In this document: piece after piece, positions 1-6,737 of the stretch
Layout: each line of letters opens with the position of its first letter
Position numbering within the stretch: the first letter of the stretch is position 1
Origin: Acidimicrobiaceae bacterium
Lineage (GTDB): Bacteria; Actinomycetota; Acidimicrobiia; Acidimicrobiales; RAAP-2
Assembly (NCBI GenBank): GCA_003157945.1
Contig: PMFY01000183.1
Location: 1-6,737 of the forward strand
Length of the DNA: 6,737 nt
Reading direction: 5' to 3'
Notes under the pieces: model-generated
The model's input: only the letters and a program-made list of their open reading frames with translations
What the model was told of the DNA's origin: nothing
The model's database searches: none
Translations under genes and position numbers: made by a program

Positions 1-330
1 GGCGTGATGAACATCATGCTGGTCTCGGTGACGGAGCGGATCCGGGAGATCGGGCTCCGCAAGGCGCTCGGGGCGACCCCCCGCGTCATCCGCCGCCAAT
101 TCCTGGTGGAGGCCTCCGTGCTCGGCACGGTCGGAGGTCTCCTCGGGGCCGCGCTCGGCGTGATCGGCGCCGAGGTACTGCCGCACTTCATCTCCGATCC
201 GATCACCGTCTCGCCGGTGGCGGCGGTGGGCGCCATCGTCGTCGCCATCGTCATCGGCATCGTCTTCGGTGTCTACCCGGCGAGCCGGGCCGCCAAGCTC
301 CCACCCATCGACGCCCTCCGCAGCGAATGA
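1..330 (+). CDS. ABC transporter permease, MacB/FtsX family (C-terminal fragment)
   Basis: This is the last 109 codons of a MacB-like permease; the start lies upstream of the window. The visible part begins with the hallmark segment VMNIMLVSVTERIREIGLRK followed by ALGATPR, the conserved cytoplasmic loop after a membrane helix in MacB/LolC/FtsX permeases. Two hydrophobic helices follow: VLGTVGGLLGAALGVIGAEVL (about residues 40-60 of the fragment) and a Val/Ile/Ala-rich helix leading to the family ending GVYPASRAAKLPPIDALRSE. MacB-type permeases couple ATP hydrolysis to mechanical work on extracytoplasmic partners, for example pushing substrates through a MacA-type adaptor. An adaptor gene follows two genes downstream, which supports a MacAB-like exporter. 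The substrate is unknown. In MacB proper the ATPase is fused to the permease, while many actinobacterial versions encode it separately; which applies here cannot be seen. Confidence 0.93.
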   Translation, partial: GVMNIMLVSVTERIREIGLRKALGATPRVIRRQFLVEASVLGTVGGLLGAALGVIGAEVLPHFISDPITVSPVAAVGAIVVAIVIGIVFGVYPASRAAKLPPIDALRSE

Positions 331-418: not shown

Positions 419-1372
419 ATGCACAACCCCAGCAGCACCCCCACCGGAACCACCCGGACGCAGCCCCGTCGGCGCAGCCTCCCCACCCGCCGGATCGCCG
501 TGCTCGGCGCCGTCGGCGCGGCCGGACTGGCGTTCGCCGCCTGTGGGGGTTCGTCGGGCGCGTCGACCGCGACGTCGGCGCCCGCATCCCCTTCGGGTTC
601 CCCGTCGGGCTCGTCGACGACACCCAGCACGCTTCCCGGTGCCTCGGGAACGATCGCCGCGGTCAGCGCCAGCTCACTCGAGGTCCAGAACACGGAGTCC
701 GGGCAGACCACGGTGAACTACACCTCGTCGACCGTCATCCGTCAGATCACCACGACCAGCGCGTCAGCCGTCACCGTCGGATCGTGCATCTCCGCCTTCG
801 GCAAGCCGACCTCGACCGCCAAGACGTCGTCGCCCTTCGGTGAGCCCATCACGGCGACGACGGTGTCGGTCTCCCAGCCGGTGTCCGGTGCCTGCGAACG
901 GGGCGGCTTCGGTGGCCGTGCCGGCGGCTTCGGCGGTGGCGCGGGCGGCACGGCCCCGGGTGGCACGCGGCCCTCCGGTGGGACCTTCCGGCCGCCGTCC
1001 GGGCGCACCTTCGGCAACGGCAGCTTCGGTGCGGCGTCCGGTCAGGTGACCGCCGTGGCCGGCTCGGTGGTGACGGTCGCCGAGACGAACCCGCAGACGA
1101 AGACGCCCACGTCGGTCACGGTGACCCTCACCTCCACCACGACCTTCACCACCACCCAGACCGGCACCGCCGCCGCCATCGTGGTCGGACAGTGCGCCCG
1201 GGCGACCGGGACGGCGGACAGCACCGGGGCGATCACCGCCCAGGACCTGACCGTCTCGGCGCCGACGAACGGGTCCTGCACCAGCGGCTTCGGATTCCGT
1301 GGTGGGTTCGGCGGCGGTGCCGGTGGCGGTGCCGGTGCCGGGGGCGCAGCGGGTTCGGCCCCGGGTGCATGA
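419..1372 (+). CDS. Predicted secreted lipoprotein with two DUF5666-like repeats and GFGG tracts
   Basis: The protein has 317 residues. Arg-rich residues 17-25 (PRRRSLPTRR) precede a hydrophobic stretch ending LAFAAC, with Cys42 as the likely lipidated residue. Position -3 is Phe, which is not the ideal lipobox residue, and the RR pairs leave Tat export possible. A Ser/Thr/Pro linker (43-73) leads to two related domains at about 75-171 and 205-299. Each starts ASG-(T/Q)-(I/V)-xAV, carries a VG(S/Q)C motif, then ITA..(V/L).VS.P and a second Cys (Cys123/Cys159 and Cys259/Cys287), and ends in a GFGG tract. This resembles the DUF5666 domain, of unknown function, found in exported actinobacterial proteins. 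The gene lies between an ABC permease and its likely adaptor, so a role as an accessory surface subunit or binding protein of that exporter is an inference. A paired disulfide in each repeat is plausible. No enzymatic motif is visible. Confidence 0.8.
   Translation: MHNPSSTPTGTTRTQPRRRSLPTRRIAVLGAVGAAGLAFAACGGSSGASTATSAPASPSGSPSGSSTTPSTLPGASGTIAAVSASSLEVQNTESGQTTVNYTSSTVIRQITTTSASAVTVGSCISAFGKPTSTAKTSSPFGEPITATTVSVSQPVSGACERGGFGGRAGGFGGGAGGTAPGGTRPSGGTFRPPSGRTFGNGSFGAASGQVTAVAGSVVTVAETNPQTKTPTSVTVTLTSTTTFTTTQTGTAAAIVVGQCARATGTADSTGAITAQDLTVSAPTNGSCTSGFGFRGGFGGGAGGGAGAGGAAGSAPGA
641..1315 (+). repeat. Internal duplication: two DUF5666-like domains
   Basis: Two diverged copies of a domain of roughly 95 residues lie at 641-931 and 1031-1315 inside the lipoprotein gene. 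Shared landmarks in the same order are ASG.(I/V).AV near the start, VG(S/Q)C in the middle, ITA followed by VS.P, a second Cys, and a GFGG-type ending. Copy 1 has a few extra residues between the two cysteines. Identity is low, so this is an old duplication seen at the protein level, not a recent DNA repeat. Confidence 0.6.
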
Positions 1373-3263
1373 TCCGTCGGGCGTGATCGCCACGCCCGCT
1401 CCCCTCGCACCGGACCCCGTCGTCCCTCCCGACGCGCCGACGGACGCACCTCCGTCGCCGCGTCGATCGGTGCGGCACGTGCCGTGGCGGTCACTCGTCG
1501 CCCTCGTCGTGGTGGCGGCCGTGGTGGTGGCGTGGGTGCTCACCCGTTCGTCCGGCCCGGCGTACCGCACCGCGCCGGTGGCGATCGGCTCCGCCGTCGC
1601 CACCCTCTCGAGCGTCGGCACCGTCACCCCCGTCCAGCAAGCCGATCTCACCTTCGCCACGGCCGGGACCGTGGGCACCGTCGACGTGAGCGTGGGCCAG
1701 CAGGTGACCGCCGGACAGGTGATCGCATCGCTCGACCCGACGTCGCTCCAGACCGCCGTCATCGACGCGCAGGTGGCACTGGCGTCCGCCCAGGCCACGC
1801 TGGCATCGGACGAGACCGCTCAGACCGACGCCGCCACCTCGACCTCCACCGGCTCGACCGGCTCGACCGGCTCGACCGGCTCGACCGGGAGCCACTCCGG
1901 CAGCGGATCGGGGACGTCCGGTTCCACGGGCACGGGCTCGACGGGGTCGAGCGCGGAGGTGGCGAAGCTCCAGGCGACCCTGGTCGCCGACCAGCACAGG
2001 CAGGACGCCGCAGCGTCCGCTGCCGGGGCCGCACTGGCGACCGCCACGACGGCGTGCGCCTCGACGTCCACGTCCGCGTCGGCCGGGACCGCTGGCGCCA
2101 CCCCGGACACCCCGAGCGGTGGTGCGCCATCCGGCGGTGGCGGTGGCGGGGGTGGCGGGGCCGAGACCTGCACCCAGGCCCTCGCCACGGCCACGTCGGC
2201 CCACCAGGCGCTCGTGGCCGCCATCGCCCAGGTCACCAAGGACGAGGCGGCGCTGTCGGCGGCACTCGGACTCGCATCCACCGGTGGCACCGGCACGCCC
2301 GGTCAGGGCGGAACGGACCCGTCGGCCGCCATCGCGACGGCCACCGAGACCGCCTTCGTGACGTCCGTCGACGCGACCACCACGGCGGCCACGTCCTCCA
2401 CTTCCGGTTCGGGCACGTCCGGCACCGGTGGGTCGTCGACCGGGTCGTCCTCGGCCACCAGCGGGCATACCCGGACGGTCACGGCCCAGGTGATCGCCCT
2501 CGACGAGACGAACGTCGACGCGGCCCAGGCCGCGCTCGAATCGGCGCAGCAGGACGTCGGGGACGCCAACCTGATCAGCAACATCTCCGGAACCGTCGGC
2601 TCCGTCACGCTCGCCGTCGGACAGTCGGTCGCCGCCGGATCGCCCTCGGCCACACCGCAGGTGGTCGTGGTGGGCCCCGGCGACGACTACCAGGTGGCGA
2701 CCACCGTCCCGGTCACCGAGGTGGCGAAGGTGAAGGTGGGCCAACAGGCACTCGTGACCCCCGACTCCAGCTCCTCGACCATCGTCGGCACGGTGACCGG
2801 CATCGGCGTGCTGGGTACCACGTCGACGTCGACGACCACGTATCCGGTCACGATCGGCATCCAGTCGACCGAGCTCGGCCCGTTCTCCGGGGCGGACGCC
2901 ACCGTCCAGATCGTCCTCGCCCGGGCCACGGGCGTCACCACCGTGCCGACGTCCGCCGTCAGGTCGGTCGGCACCCTCCGTACGGTGACCGTGATCGACG
3001 GCACCACCCCGAAGGTGGTCCGTGTGACGGTGGGGACGACCGGCACTCTGCGGACCCAGATCCTTTCCGGTGTCCGGGTGGGGCAGGTCGTGTCGTTGGC
3101 GGAGATGGCCGCCCCGGTCCCGTCGTCCTCGACCACCACGCGCTCAGGGCTCGCCGGCCTGTCGGGGTCCGGCGGCTTCGGAGGCACCGGGGGCTTCGGC
3201 GGTGCCGGTGGGTTCGCCGGAGGGACGGGGGGCTTCGGCGGCACCGCCCGCGTCGGGGGTTAG
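1365..3263 (+). CDS. HlyD/MacA-type periplasmic adaptor protein with enlarged hairpin region
   Basis: The protein has 632 residues if it starts at GTG 1365, which overlaps the lipoprotein stop by 8 bases. GTG 1383 would give 626 residues; neither has a strong ribosome binding site. The order is: a Pro-rich cytoplasmic tail (1-40), one membrane anchor (about 44-60), the first half of a lipoyl-like barrel-sandwich (96-122, with GTVGTVDVSVGQQVTAGQVI), a long insert (123-403), the second lipoyl half (405-435, ISGTVGSVTLAVGQSVAAG), a beta-barrel domain (about 441-520), a membrane-proximal domain (about 521-580) and a Gly-rich tail. Family adaptors such as MacA link a MacB-type permease to downstream partners through a helical hairpin between the lipoyl halves. 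Here the insert is about 280 residues, against roughly 70-90 in MacA. It has four Ala-rich helical segments (123-155, 196-230, 266-303, 369-402) separated by Ser/Thr/Gly linkers. The only cysteines, Cys231 and Cys269, flank the central poly-Gly linker. Confidence 0.85.
   Translation: MHDPSGVIATPAPLAPDPVVPPDAPTDAPPSPRRSVRHVPWRSLVALVVVAAVVVAWVLTRSSGPAYRTAPVAIGSAVATLSSVGTVTPVQQADLTFATAGTVGTVDVSVGQQVTAGQVIASLDPTSLQTAVIDAQVALASAQATLASDETAQTDAATSTSTGSTGSTGSTGSTGSHSGSGSGTSGSTGTGSTGSSAEVAKLQATLVADQHRQDAAASAAGAALATATTACASTSTSASAGTAGATPDTPSGGAPSGGGGGGGGGAETCTQALATATSAHQALVAAIAQVTKDEAALSAALGLASTGGTGTPGQGGTDPSAAIATATETAFVTSVDATTTAATSSTSGSGTSGTGGSSTGSSSATSGHTRTVTAQVIALDETNVDAAQAALESAQQDVGDANLISNISGTVGSVTLAVGQSVAAGSPSATPQVVVVGPGDDYQVATTVPVTEVAKVKVGQQALVTPDSSSSTIVGTVTGIGVLGTTSTSTTTYPVTIGIQSTELGPFSGADATVQIVLARATGVTTVPTSAVRSVGTLRTVTVIDGTTPKVVRVTVGTTGTLRTQILSGVRVGQVVSLAEMAAPVPSSSTTTRSGLAGLSGSGGFGGTGGFGGAGGFAGGTGGFGGTARVGG
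1851..1886 (+). repeat. Four exact tandem copies of the 9-mer GGCTCGACC
   Basis: The 9-base unit GGCTCGACC occurs four times without a mismatch, and degenerate copies continue on both sides. It lies in the adaptor gene and encodes a Gly-Ser-Thr repeat in the linker after the first hairpin helix (about residues 161-176). Because the unit is a multiple of three, slippage would change linker length without breaking the frame. Confidence 0.9.
3171..3242 (+). repeat. GGFGG-type glycine-rich tail of the adaptor
   Basis: Residues 603-626 of the adaptor consist of GGFGG units separated by Thr-, Ala- or Gly-containing spacers, built from variants of GGCTTCGG at DNA level. Similar GFGG tracts occur in the neighbouring lipoprotein at about 902-955 and 1283-1354. 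The tail follows the membrane-proximal domain and is probably disordered. Confidence 0.75.
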
Positions 3264-3356: not shown

Positions 3357-3857
3357 ATGACCGACGACCAGCTGGCCCTCGAGGCCGTGCACGACACCGG
3401 GGTGCGACGGCTCCAGCACGCCTATGCCGACGTCGTCAACCGGCGGGCCTGGTCCGAACTCAAGTCGCTGTTCCGTCCCGACGCCGACGTCGTGATCGAC
3501 ACCCGGGTCGGTGACCCCCTGCGGCTCGTGGGTGGGGCGGAGGTGGGCGCCTTCATCGGCTCGGCCATCGCCCGGTTCTCCTTCTTCGAGTTCGTGATCC
3601 TCAACGCCCACATCGCGTTCCCCGACGGGGTCGACGCCGGCTCGGCGGTGTGCCGGCTGTTCATGTGCGAGCTGCGCCAGGACGAAGCCACGCAGCGGTT
3701 CACCACCGCCTTCGGGCTCTATCACGACCGGTACGTCCTGGAAGGGGGGCGGTGGTGGTTCGCGCAGCGGCGCTACCACTCGCTGGCCCGCCACGGCGGG
3801 GTGCTCGACATCTTCGGGCTGCCCGCCGAGCCCGGCATCGAAGTCCCCGGGTTCTGA
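3357..3857 (+). CDS. SnoaL-like (NTF2-superfamily) protein
   Basis: The protein has 166 residues. Its layout fits the SnoaL_4-type NTF2-like fold. An N-terminal helix (about 9-30, ending RLQHAYADVVNRR) is followed by AWSELKSLFRPDADVVID, the usual 'rD/W..L..lF..DA.vd' signature of polyketide cyclase, dehydratase and ring-hydroxylating dioxygenase beta-like proteins. Beta strands follow with His85 (ILNAHIAF), Cys99 and Cys104, and the C-terminal strand GGRWWFAQRRYHSLA. The fold forms a cone-shaped pocket and serves both enzymes and binding proteins; Asp42 and His85 are candidate pocket residues but the substrate cannot be inferred. It looks cytoplasmic, with no signal peptide or membrane segment. 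ATG 3357 is chosen over the upstream in-frame GTG 3285 because the extra 24 residues are Arg/Pro-rich and unlike the family. The histidine phosphatase gene starts 55 bases downstream and may be co-transcribed. Confidence 0.8.
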   Translation: MTDDQLALEAVHDTGVRRLQHAYADVVNRRAWSELKSLFRPDADVVIDTRVGDPLRLVGGAEVGAFIGSAIARFSFFEFVILNAHIAFPDGVDAGSAVCRLFMCELRQDEATQRFTTAFGLYHDRYVLEGGRWWFAQRRYHSLARHGGVLDIFGLPAEPGIEVPGF

Positions 3858-3912: not shown

Positions 3913-4380
3913 ATGCCGCTCCTCGTGGTCCGACATGCACGCGCCGGTCGGCGCAGCGCCTACGACGGGGACGACCTCGACCGCCCGCTCTCCCCACGGG
4001 GTCGTGCCCAGGCCGAGGGCCTGGTCCCCCTGCTGGCCGGCTACCGGCCCCGCCGGATCCTGTCGAGCCCGGCGGTCCGGTGCTTCGAGACGGTCCGTCC
4101 CGTCGCCGAGGCCCTGGACCTACCCATCGAGTCGGTGGGCGAGCTGGCCGAGGGACACGGCTCCGAGGCGCTCCACCTGCTCCACCGGATGGCCGGGGAG
4201 ACGGCCGTGCTGTGCACCCACGGCGACATCGCCGCCGAGCTGCTCGACGAGCTGGCGCCCGAGCTGTCCGCCAAGGCCCGCTACAAGCTCCGCCTGCTCA
4301 AGGGCGAGGTGTGGGTCGTGCGGTCCGCCGGCGATGCCCTCGAGATCGTCGACCACCTCCACCAGGCCCCCCGTCGGTGA
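3913..4380 (+). CDS. SixA-like histidine phosphatase (phosphoglycerate mutase superfamily)
   Basis: The protein has 155 residues, typical of the short single-domain SixA branch of the histidine phosphatase superfamily. The N-terminal motif LLVVRHARAG contains the phospho-accepting His8 next to Arg7. DLDRPLSPRGRAQAEG follows, matching the SixA-type 'D..RpLs.rG..qA' segment. SSPAVRCFETVRP supplies the second phosphate-binding Arg56, Glu79 is a candidate acid, and LCTHGD provides the second catalytic His103. All core residues are intact, so an active phosphatase is expected. E. coli SixA removes phosphate from phosphohistidine on signalling or phosphotransfer proteins, but relatives act on many small phosphates. 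Mycobacterial MutT1 carries such a domain fused to a Nudix domain; no Nudix domain is present here. No signal peptide is seen, so it should be cytoplasmic. It ends 107 bases before murL; a functional link to the wall genes is unproven. Confidence 0.88.
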   Translation: MPLLVVRHARAGRRSAYDGDDLDRPLSPRGRAQAEGLVPLLAGYRPRRILSSPAVRCFETVRPVAEALDLPIESVGELAEGHGSEALHLLHRMAGETAVLCTHGDIAAELLDELAPELSAKARYKLRLLKGEVWVVRSAGDALEIVDHLHQAPRR

Positions 4381-4487: not shown

Positions 4488-5858
4488 ATGACCGACCCGC
4501 TCCGCTTCGACCCGGGTTCCCACCGCACCTTCCGGATCGTCGGGCGGGCCTACGACGTCGAAGCGCGGACGATCACCCTGCGGTACGCGCTCGACGACCG
4601 GACCGAGTTCACCGAGACCATCACCTTCGAGACCCCACCGGGCCCCGGCGCCGACCCCGGCGGGCCGACCGGTGTCGGCTTCGAGCGGGCCCTGCTCCAC
4701 CTGCACGTCGCCGCGGGCACCAGCTACTACAAGACGGCCGCCCCGGCGCAGGTCGTCGTCGAGGGTGAGTCGCTCAGCGCTCCGGAGCTCGAGCTCTACC
4801 ACCGCCTGTACGACGAGGGCCTCCGCGAGTTCGCCGTCACCAACGGACTGGCCGTACCTCGGCCGGTGGCCGTCGTCGCCGGTCGGGGTGAGGCCGGCCA
4901 CCCGCTGCCGCCTCCGGGCGCGCTCCGGCCGGGCCTCCTGGTGCCGATCGGCGGGGGCAAGGACTCGATGGCCCTCATCGAGTCCGTCCGGCACCTCGCC
5001 CCCCGTCTCTTCGCCGTCAATCCGCACCCGCTGGTCCTGGAGCTGGCCGACGAGGCGGGCCTGGACGTGGTGGTCGTCCGCCGGCGGCTCGATCCCGGCC
5101 TGGCCGCACTCAACACCGCCGGGGCGTTGAACGGGCACGTCCCCATCACCGCCATCGTCTCGCTCATCGCCGTCGTGGGGGCGTTCGTCCACGGCTACGA
5201 CACCGTGGCCATGGCCGTGGAGCGGTCGGCCAGCGAGGAGACCGTCACCGTGGGCGGTGTGGCGGTCAACCACCAGTACTCGAAGAGCCGCGAGTTCGAG
5301 CTCCTCCTGGCCGACCTGGTGCGCCGAACCGTCGCCCCCGAGCTGACGTACGGGTCGGCGCTCCGGCCCTACTCGGAGCTGGCCATCGCCCGGGCGTTCG
5401 CCCGGCTCACCCGCTACCACGGGACCTTCTGCAGCTGTAACTCCGCCTACCGCCAGGGCGCCGACGCGGCCGACCGCTGGTGCGGGCACTGCCCCAAGTG
5501 CCGGTTCGTCGGACTGATGCTGGCGCCGTTCCTCGAGCCGGACGAGCTGACCGCCATCATCGGGACCGACATGTTCGGCGATCCCGGACAGGTGCCGGGG
5601 TTCGCCGCCCTCATGAGCGACACCGACAAGCCGTTCGAGTGCGTGGGGGAGCGGCGGGAGTCCGCGGTGGCGCTGCGGCTCCTGGCCGGTCGGCCGGCGT
5701 GGCGGAACTCGGCGGTGGTCGCGGCCCTGGCCCCGGTGGCCGAGGCCCTCGTCGGCGACGAGGACGTGGCCGACCTGCTCACCCCCGACCCCGGCCTGGC
5801 CTTCGACGACCCGGCGGTGGCCGCGGCCGTCGACGTCCTGCTGGCGGGGGACCGGTGA
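4488..5858 (+). CDS. murL: UDP-MurNAc-L-Ala-L-Glu epimerase (MurL)
   Basis: The protein has 456 residues, close to the size I recall for Xanthomonas MurL. In Xanthomonas, MurL inverts the terminal L-Glu of UDP-MurNAc-L-Ala-L-Glu to D-Glu in an ATP-dependent reaction, feeding peptidoglycan synthesis without free D-Glu. Seen here: an N-terminal beta-rich region (1-90); the nucleotide loop LLVPIGGGKDSMALIE at 150-165, a variant of the SGGxDS PP-loop of ATP pyrophosphatases; FAVNPHP at 175-181; AMAVERSASEE at 241-251; NHQYSKSREFE at 261-271; and a cysteine-rich part with FCSCNSAYR (Cys315, Cys317) and WCGHCPKCRF (Cys332, Cys335, Cys338). The C-terminal part (about 340-456) is helical. No signal peptide is seen, so it should be cytoplasmic. 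The stop overlaps the GTG of a MurD-family gene by 4 bases, indicating translational coupling and strongly supporting the call. Without that partner I would have said only PP-loop ATPase-like protein. The identification is from memory of the family. Confidence 0.85.
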   Translation: MTDPLRFDPGSHRTFRIVGRAYDVEARTITLRYALDDRTEFTETITFETPPGPGADPGGPTGVGFERALLHLHVAAGTSYYKTAAPAQVVVEGESLSAPELELYHRLYDEGLREFAVTNGLAVPRPVAVVAGRGEAGHPLPPPGALRPGLLVPIGGGKDSMALIESVRHLAPRLFAVNPHPLVLELADEAGLDVVVVRRRLDPGLAALNTAGALNGHVPITAIVSLIAVVGAFVHGYDTVAMAVERSASEETVTVGGVAVNHQYSKSREFELLLADLVRRTVAPELTYGSALRPYSELAIARAFARLTRYHGTFCSCNSAYRQGADAADRWCGHCPKCRFVGLMLAPFLEPDELTAIIGTDMFGDPGQVPGFAALMSDTDKPFECVGERRESAVALRLLAGRPAWRNSAVVAALAPVAEALVGDEDVADLLTPDPGLAFDDPAVAAAVDVLLAGDR

Positions 5859-6737
5859 CGTCCGAGCGGCTGTCCCTCGAAGGTGTCCTGGCCCGGCGCG
5901 TGGCCGTGTGGGGCATGGGGGCGGAGGGGCTGTCCCTGGCGGCCCTGGCCGTCGGGCGGGGGGTCGAACCGGTGCTGGTCGACGACCAGCCCGACGCGGC
6001 GGCCGATCGGGTGGCCGGTGCGCTGGGCGACGCCCGGCCGGTCCTCCTGCCGGCCGACGTGGACTGGGCCGATGTCGACGTGGTGGTGCGGGCGCCGGGC
6101 GTGAGCCGCTACCGACCGGAACTGCTGGCCGCCGCCGCCGCCGGGGCGCGGGTGACGACGGCCATGGCGGTGTGGCTGGAGGACCATGCCGACGCACCGG
6201 TGGTGGCCATCACCGGCACCAAGGGCAAGAGCACGACGGCGGCCCTGGCCGCGGCCATCCTCGAGGCCGACGGGCTCGAGGTGGCTCTGATCGGCAACAT
6301 CGGCGTCCCGGTGCTCGACACCTACGCCCGGCCCCGGCCCGACGCCTTCGTGGTCGAGGTCTCCTCCTACCAGGCGGCCGACGTGACGCGGTCCCCCGGG
6401 GTCGTGGTGCTGACCAGCCTGGCTCCCGACCACCTCGACTGGCACGGCGGCGAGGAGGCCTACTACCGGGACAAGCTGCGCCTGGTGGAGGCCGGACGCC
6501 CGGACGGGTCCGTGGCGCTGGCGGTCAGCGCCGGCAACGCCGAGGCGGTCCGCCGGACGGCCCATCACCGCGACCGCACCCTCTACGGGCCCGAAGGCCG
6601 GGTCCGGGTCGACGCCGGCGGATGGGTCGTGGTGGACGGCACCCGGGTGGCCGATGCCGGGCGTCTGCGGGTCCCCGGTCGGCACAACGCCTGGAATCTC
6701 TGCGGCGCGGTGGCCGGCGCCCTGCTGCTCACGGGGT
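5855..6737 (+). CDS. murD2: MurD-family ligase, probably MurD2 (UDP-MurNAc-L-Ala--L-Glu ligase), 3'-truncated by window end
   Basis: The open frame runs from GTG 5855 to the window edge: 294 codons, about two thirds of a MurD of roughly 450 residues. A purine run GGGGGA at 5846-5851 precedes the start closely. Domain 1 has a Rossmann-like VAVWGMGAEG (17-25) and the MurD signature RAPGVSRYRPEL (79-90). The central domain has the ATP loop ITGTKGKSTTAA (119-130), GNIGVPVLD (147-155), EVSSYQ (168-173), TSLAPDHLDWHGG (187-199) and YYRDKLRL, where Lys207 matches the carbamoylated lysine of E. coli MurD. The domain ends with GRHNAWNLCGAVAGAL (275-290). Classical MurD joins D-Glu to UDP-MurNAc-L-Ala with ATP. 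Overlap with murL suggests the MurD2 variant that adds L-Glu, with MurL then epimerising it. The loop reads GTKGKST where E. coli MurD has GSNGKST. A standard MurD cannot be excluded because the C-terminal amino-acid-binding domain is cut off. Confidence 0.88.
   Translation, partial: MTSERLSLEGVLARRVAVWGMGAEGLSLAALAVGRGVEPVLVDDQPDAAADRVAGALGDARPVLLPADVDWADVDVVVRAPGVSRYRPELLAAAAAGARVTTAMAVWLEDHADAPVVAITGTKGKSTTAALAAAILEADGLEVALIGNIGVPVLDTYARPRPDAFVVEVSSYQAADVTRSPGVVVLTSLAPDHLDWHGGEEAYYRDKLRLVEAGRPDGSVALAVSAGNAEAVRRTAHHRDRTLYGPEGRVRVDAGGWVVVDGTRVADAGRLRVPGRHNAWNLCGAVAGALLLTG

Follow-up and report, generated by a model that had tools for sequence, protein, structure and literature searches.

The stretch of DNA analysed here (6,737 nt at full length, hereafter the window) ends in two overlapping genes: murL, coding for a putative epimerase, and murD2, coding for a MurD-family ligase (Table 1). 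We consider it very probable that this pair constitutes an acidimicrobial MurL/MurD2 module acting as the main or only source of D-glutamate (D-Glu) for peptidoglycan: MurD2 would first attach L-Glu to the wall precursor, and MurL would then flip the attached residue in place to D-Glu, by way of an adenylate intermediate. An earlier note on this DNA had described a MurL-like gene with a GGGKDS loop and a Cys motif, overlapping a MurD-family ligase gene by four bases, and the reading frames, both motifs and the GTGA overlap were all found. A start codon within an NTGA overlap was available in all 12 acidimicrobial relatives (L001-L012), with alternative starts possible. In locus L001, from an Acidimicrobiaceae metagenome-assembled genome (MAG), all seven window genes were present in the same order and MurL was 84-85% identical. 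The nearest named genomes were Acidimicrobiaceae/Acidimicrobiales MAGs, in agreement with the earlier assignment of the host to Actinomycetota.

Table 1. Genes and motifs of the pair, followed by the neighbouring genes; coordinates refer to the whole window.
Feature	Position (nt)	Strand	Remarks
murL	4488-5858	+	ATG start, 456 aa; NF041275
GGGKDS pyrophosphate-binding loop of MurL, residues 155-160	4950-4967	+	
Predicted QueC-type metal site, Cys4 motif C317-x14-C332-x2-C335-x2-C338	5436-5501	+	
GTGA overlap, murL stop/murD2 start	5855-5858	+	
murD2, MurD-family ligase, N-terminal 294 aa	5855-6737	+	GTG start; frame runs off window end
ABC permease end (MacB-like)	1-330	+	partial gene
DUF5666-like open reading frame	419-1372	+	
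HlyD/RND-type adaptor	1383-3263	+	
SnoaL-like gene, conserved neighbour	3357-3857	+	PF13577
Histidine phosphatase gene, conserved neighbour	3913-4380	+	PF00300

MurL and its predicted fold

The window MurL matched the NCBIfam model NF041275 with 379 bits (E 2e-113) over model positions 3-409 of 447, a score below the curated cut-off of 700 bits. Since the Micromonospora and Actinoplanes proteins also missed this cut-off (405 and 402 bits) and that of Stenotrophomonas passed it (814 bits), the cut-off seems to mark Xanthomonadales and not function. Homology to characterised MurL proteins extended over nearly the full length and all the invariant motifs were present: GGG.DS and the residues C317, C332, C335, and C338 were conserved in all 98 MurL rows of the alignment (L001 and L082 among them being the same gene), C315 of the window protein being an additional Cys outside the invariant four. 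Used as query against a large protein collection, MurL had 6824 relatives at E ≤ 0.001 out of 7997 scored; GGGxDS and SCN..WCxxCxKCxF were both retained in all of the 120 nearest proteins listed, and the organism names among these were those of Acidimicrobiales. In the MurL tree, the window protein grouped with proteins of genera for which activity has been reported. A second, divergent acidimicrobial MurL/MurD2 clade was also observed (L084-L098, except L086 and L096; genomes of 1.5-2.2 Mb), the loop of which read GGGIDS or GGGLDS, without the Lys, in the four rows inspected.

The predicted fold of MurL was QueC-type with a Cys4 site, its closest match being QatC, along with QueC, and hhalign paired the GGGKDS loop with the SGGLDS of QueC (L174, a sixth long QueC match, was omitted from A2). 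MurL therefore has in common with QueC (PF06508), Cap9, and QatC this predicted fold, the pyrophosphate-binding loop (PP-loop) and the four-Cys site, the last two both present in the window protein. It differs in having GGGxDS where QueC-type proteins have SGGxDS, in its substrate, in the lack of a PF06508 match and in the approximately 150 residues that precede the PP-loop, an extension absent from QueC and Cap9. According to excerpts of the published work, the QueC motif C(x)8CxxCxxC binds Zn (PMC13329287) and QueC uses ATP to activate a carboxylate (PMC13279940). The Cys4 site of MurL would presumably also hold a metal, and its QueC-type fold fits and supports the proposed adenylate chemistry. 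By extension from MurL as an adenylating epimerase, QatC may be a carboxylate-activating enzyme of the MurL kind.

The ligase and its glutamate pocket

The partial ligase (294 aa) matched Mur_ligase_M with 72 bits and the murD model TIGR01087 with 164 bits (model positions 1-283 of 441), and its closest full-length protein was P0121 (460 aa, 92% identical). The 96 MurL loci that were searched for an adjacent MurD gave 92 ligases, with L029, L035, L058, and L070 dropped; in L029 and L035, the sequence stops at or shortly past MurL. For about 10 kb to each side of the MurL gene of L058, from a Thiotrichales MAG, no MurD-family gene was present, and in L045 the MurD gene lay about 3 kb from murL on the opposite strand. 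In a quick maximum-likelihood phylogeny (60 rows, no bootstrap), 47 MurL-locus ligases formed one branch (Shimodaira-Hasegawa-like approximate likelihood ratio test, 100), apart from 13 canonical MurDs (that of E. coli and 12 from genomes of the same class that contain MurI). The window ligase fell among Acidimicrobiales within the MurL-linked ligases.

Ligase positions are given in E. coli MurD numbering, in which 182 corresponds to X. oryzae 197 and 348 to X. oryzae 358. Excerpts of the minireview PMC8788868 report that the E197D mutation of X. oryzae MurD2 changes its stereospecificity, that E197D and R358K jointly switch this enzyme to D-Glu, and that K319T in E. coli MurD permits L-Glu. 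Both K319 and K348 were present in E. coli MurD and in the 12 canonical MurDs of the same class. The MurL-locus ligases had Ile or Leu at 319 and Arg at 348, each in 91 of 92, L007 ending before both positions; among the 120 nearest proteins listed, Leu319 was present in all and Arg348 in 119, with one gap. The window clade was further distinguished by Ser321, Thr415, and Pro416, positions at which other ligases mostly have Thr, Ser, and either Phe or Tyr, respectively. At position 182, the 92 MurL-linked ligases had 62 Glu, 28 Asp, and 2 Cys; with so many of them devoid of it, Glu182 may not be a defining mark of the MurD2 family.

Single-frame fusions of MurL and ligase were found in L083 (1321-3951, + strand, 877 aa) and L086 (100-2682, - strand, 861 aa), from genomes G109 and G024, both having Cys where E. 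coli MurD has D182. A search with one fusion gave 327 proteins, and 92 of the 120 listed bore the MurL Pfams together with Mur_ligase_M. These 92 all contained [ST]CN...CxxCxKC, and 89 contained GGG.DS; MurL was N-terminal to the ligase in 59 of the 60 fusions readable by motif at both ends, with a single exception. Ligase residues were read in the 22 fusions passing the strict Cys pattern, which had Leu or Ile at 319 in all cases, Arg348 in 18, and Cys at 182 in 17. Source labels of the fusions included Acidimicrobiia, Bacteroidales MAGs, and Patescibacteria. Such fusion is further evidence that both proteins act on one intermediate.

Sources of D-Glu in related genomes

The searches for D-Glu sources covered the genomes of relatives, the window's own genome lying outside the sample. 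MurI was found in none of the 12 nearest MurL genomes, and the MurI model TIGR00067 exceeded its cut-off in none of 15 MurL genomes, Actinoplanes giving one weak match of 28 bits. A PF01177 search, which detected the MurI-positive genome G018, was positive in a single one (47 bits) among the 12 genomes of the window clade; Solirubrobacter and Actinoplanes had members of the PF01177 superfamily over cut-off, none of them MurI by the TIGR cut-off. No D-amino-acid transaminase (TIGR01121) over cut-off was found in any of 28 MurL genomes.

The distribution of MurI and MurL was compared in 149 genomes from the class of G001, requested at a completeness of at least 90%. MurL was present in 17 of them, and MurI was over cut-off in 98, or in 103 when five matches at 122-140 bits are included. 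None of the 17 MurL genomes had MurI, versus 103 of the 132 others (Fisher p 1.8e-10, with no kinship correction), a 29-bit match being seen in one MurL genome, G125. MurI and MurL were mutually exclusive within this one class sample. In addition, MurL and a convincing MurI were both absent from 29 of the 149 genomes (7 of these giving 20-33-bit matches), and no D-amino-acid transaminase over cut-off was found in these 29; eight were about 1 Mb in size and the rest 1.6-3.9 Mb. Unless these genomes are incomplete, they point to an unseen D-Glu route in the class.

Six regions of the dcw division cluster were available from MurL genomes, five spanning mraY to ftsW and the sixth stopping at ftsW at a contig end. 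In the five testable relatives, no murD was located between mraY and ftsW, the gene order being rsmH, ftsI, murE, mraY, ftsW, murG, and murC, whereas murD occupied this slot in 12 of 12 MurI genomes checked, picked from the 103. Exactly one MurD over cut-off was detected in 13 of 15 MurL genomes, and in G003 (211.5 bits) and G007 (134.9 bits) the MurD matches were cut at contig ends. The empty slot and the single MurD indicated that the division cluster of these relatives no longer contains murD, the counterpart of which stands beside murL. In the dcw clusters L135 and L137-L140, none of the frames seen from murE to mraY matched murF best.

As for the other genes of the window, the SnoaL-like gene was found 5' of murL in 9 of 12 relatives and the histidine phosphatase gene in 8 of 12; the function of the latter is probably unrelated to murL. 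The HlyD/RND-type adaptor, which neighbours the MacB-like permease end and the DUF5666-like frame, contains a long insert rich in Gly, Ser, and Thr.

The MurL/MurD2 route and its alternatives

Homology, gene coupling, phylogeny, the lack of both a recognisable MurI and a dcw murD in relatives, and the predicted fold are the basis for the MurL/MurD2 route, an already described but infrequent one on which these relatives appear to depend. All of these but the fold also support the earlier note in its proposal of this route. Its suggestion that the pair would be the sole supply of D-Glu in a genome lacking murI and a second murD appeared to hold for the relatives, and the window's own genome would presumably be devoid of MurI as well.

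Several observations weigh against this interpretation. Foldseek gave no MurL match at E ≤ 0.001. The window ends before ligase positions 319 and 348, the residues of which were read from relatives, and Arg348 is not universal, as it was missing from 4 of the 22 fused ligases. Position 182 is Asp in the window ligase and in 120 of the 120 nearest proteins listed, as mostly in canonical MurD, and the window ligase does not have the Glu that acts as a switch residue at position 197 of X. oryzae MurD2. G009 contained one distant Asp/Glu racemase homologue, and class IV aminotransferase matches below the TIGR01121 cut-off occurred in 27 of the 28 MurL genomes; these are mostly frames of about 310 residues, taken as putative IlvE-like enzymes. 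Finally, completeness values were not shown for the genomes, and most named relatives are MAGs.

Judged from sequence, Asp182 is the sole feature that leaves the stereochemistry undecided: either Glu182 would be unnecessary in the pocket of the window clade, or the enzyme would select L-Glu less strictly than its Xanthomonas counterpart. The fuller proposal, that MurL is a QueC/QatC-type carboxylate-adenylating enzyme turned peptide epimerase and that the acidimicrobial MurD2 chooses L-Glu by means of a different pocket (Asp182, Leu319, Ser321, Arg348, Thr415, and Pro416) in which Glu197 is dispensable, is in our judgement evenly poised between right and wrong.

The alternative that survives best, although we regard it as improbable, is that a canonical D-Glu-adding MurD merely lies beside murL, the D-Glu being supplied by a racemase that went unrecognised or by a class IV transaminase. 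Asp182, the class IV aminotransferase matches and the 29 class genomes without MurL, MurI or D-amino-acid transaminase over cut-off would fit this; however, the ligase shares a branch with the MurL-linked ligases, from which the 12 canonical acidimicrobial MurDs are separate, its clade has Leu for K319 (whose exchange to Thr lets L-Glu into E. coli MurD according to the excerpts of PMC8788868) and Arg for K348 wherever these could be read, and MurL and a convincing MurI coexist in 0 of the 149 genomes. It is less probable still that the pair serves as a backup or side pathway (for instance in making a special glycan or secondary metabolite) in a cell that also has a complete murI/murD pathway: the MurI and murD content of the window's own genome was not searchable, but no MurI was present in 12 of 12 nearest relatives and the dcw murD slot was empty in 5 of 5. 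It is scarcely credible that the first gene codes for a QueC-like or defence QatC-like member of another PP-loop family instead of an epimerase, since, although QatC and QueC are the closest folds, the earlier call of MurL is upheld by the NF041275 match over most of the length, the placement in the MurL tree, the absence of any match to Pfam (E up to 10) or PADLOC models, and homologues coupled or fused to a Mur ligase.

The MurL/MurD2 reading places the window close to known systems. The X. oryzae pair (XOO_1319/XOO_1320) shares the two-gene module and the MurL motifs, according to excerpts of PMC8788868; its MurD2 shares Arg348, Leu/Ile319, and Pro414 with the window's relatives, in which, as for the X. 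oryzae system, no murI was recognised. The window MurL is about 41-46% identical to Xanthomonadales MurLs (the X. oryzae protein itself not being in the comparison), and the ligase differs from X. oryzae MurD2 in having Asp, not Glu, at 182 and, in its relatives, a Glu pocket with Ser321, Thr415, and Pro416. Micromonosporaceae likewise have an actinobacterial MurL and MurD2, the two genomes searched giving no MurI match over cut-off, and the same excerpts report in vitro confirmation of the pairs of Micromonospora sp. and Salinispora tropica (PMC8788868). In their loci L050 and L080, however, murL and murD2 are divergently oriented and the ligase has Glu182, whereas the window genes overlap and code for a ligase with Asp182. 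The canonical MurDs L142-L153, from genomes of the same class that have MurI, share the Mur ligase family and the His183 and Lys198 positions, but are encoded between mraY and ftsW, have K319 and K348 and form a separate branch.

The MurL pathway, the gene pair and its actinobacterial occurrence have already been published, as seen in excerpts of PMC8788868 and PMC5808125, and the labels L-Glu ligase and epimerase are already attached to some public proteins; among the papers searched, a combination of MurL with Acidimicrobi- terms matched a copper-resistance review, in which one such word occurs, and no publication about MurL by title. For a specialist, the points worth pursuing would be the Asp182 pocket and the QueC-type fold. 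With these results, an uncultured actinobacterial order joins the few genera from which this cell-wall route is known. The data also provide a means of testing which MurD2 residues determine the Glu enantiomer chosen, and they assign MurL to a structural family in support of the adenylate mechanism proposed for it.
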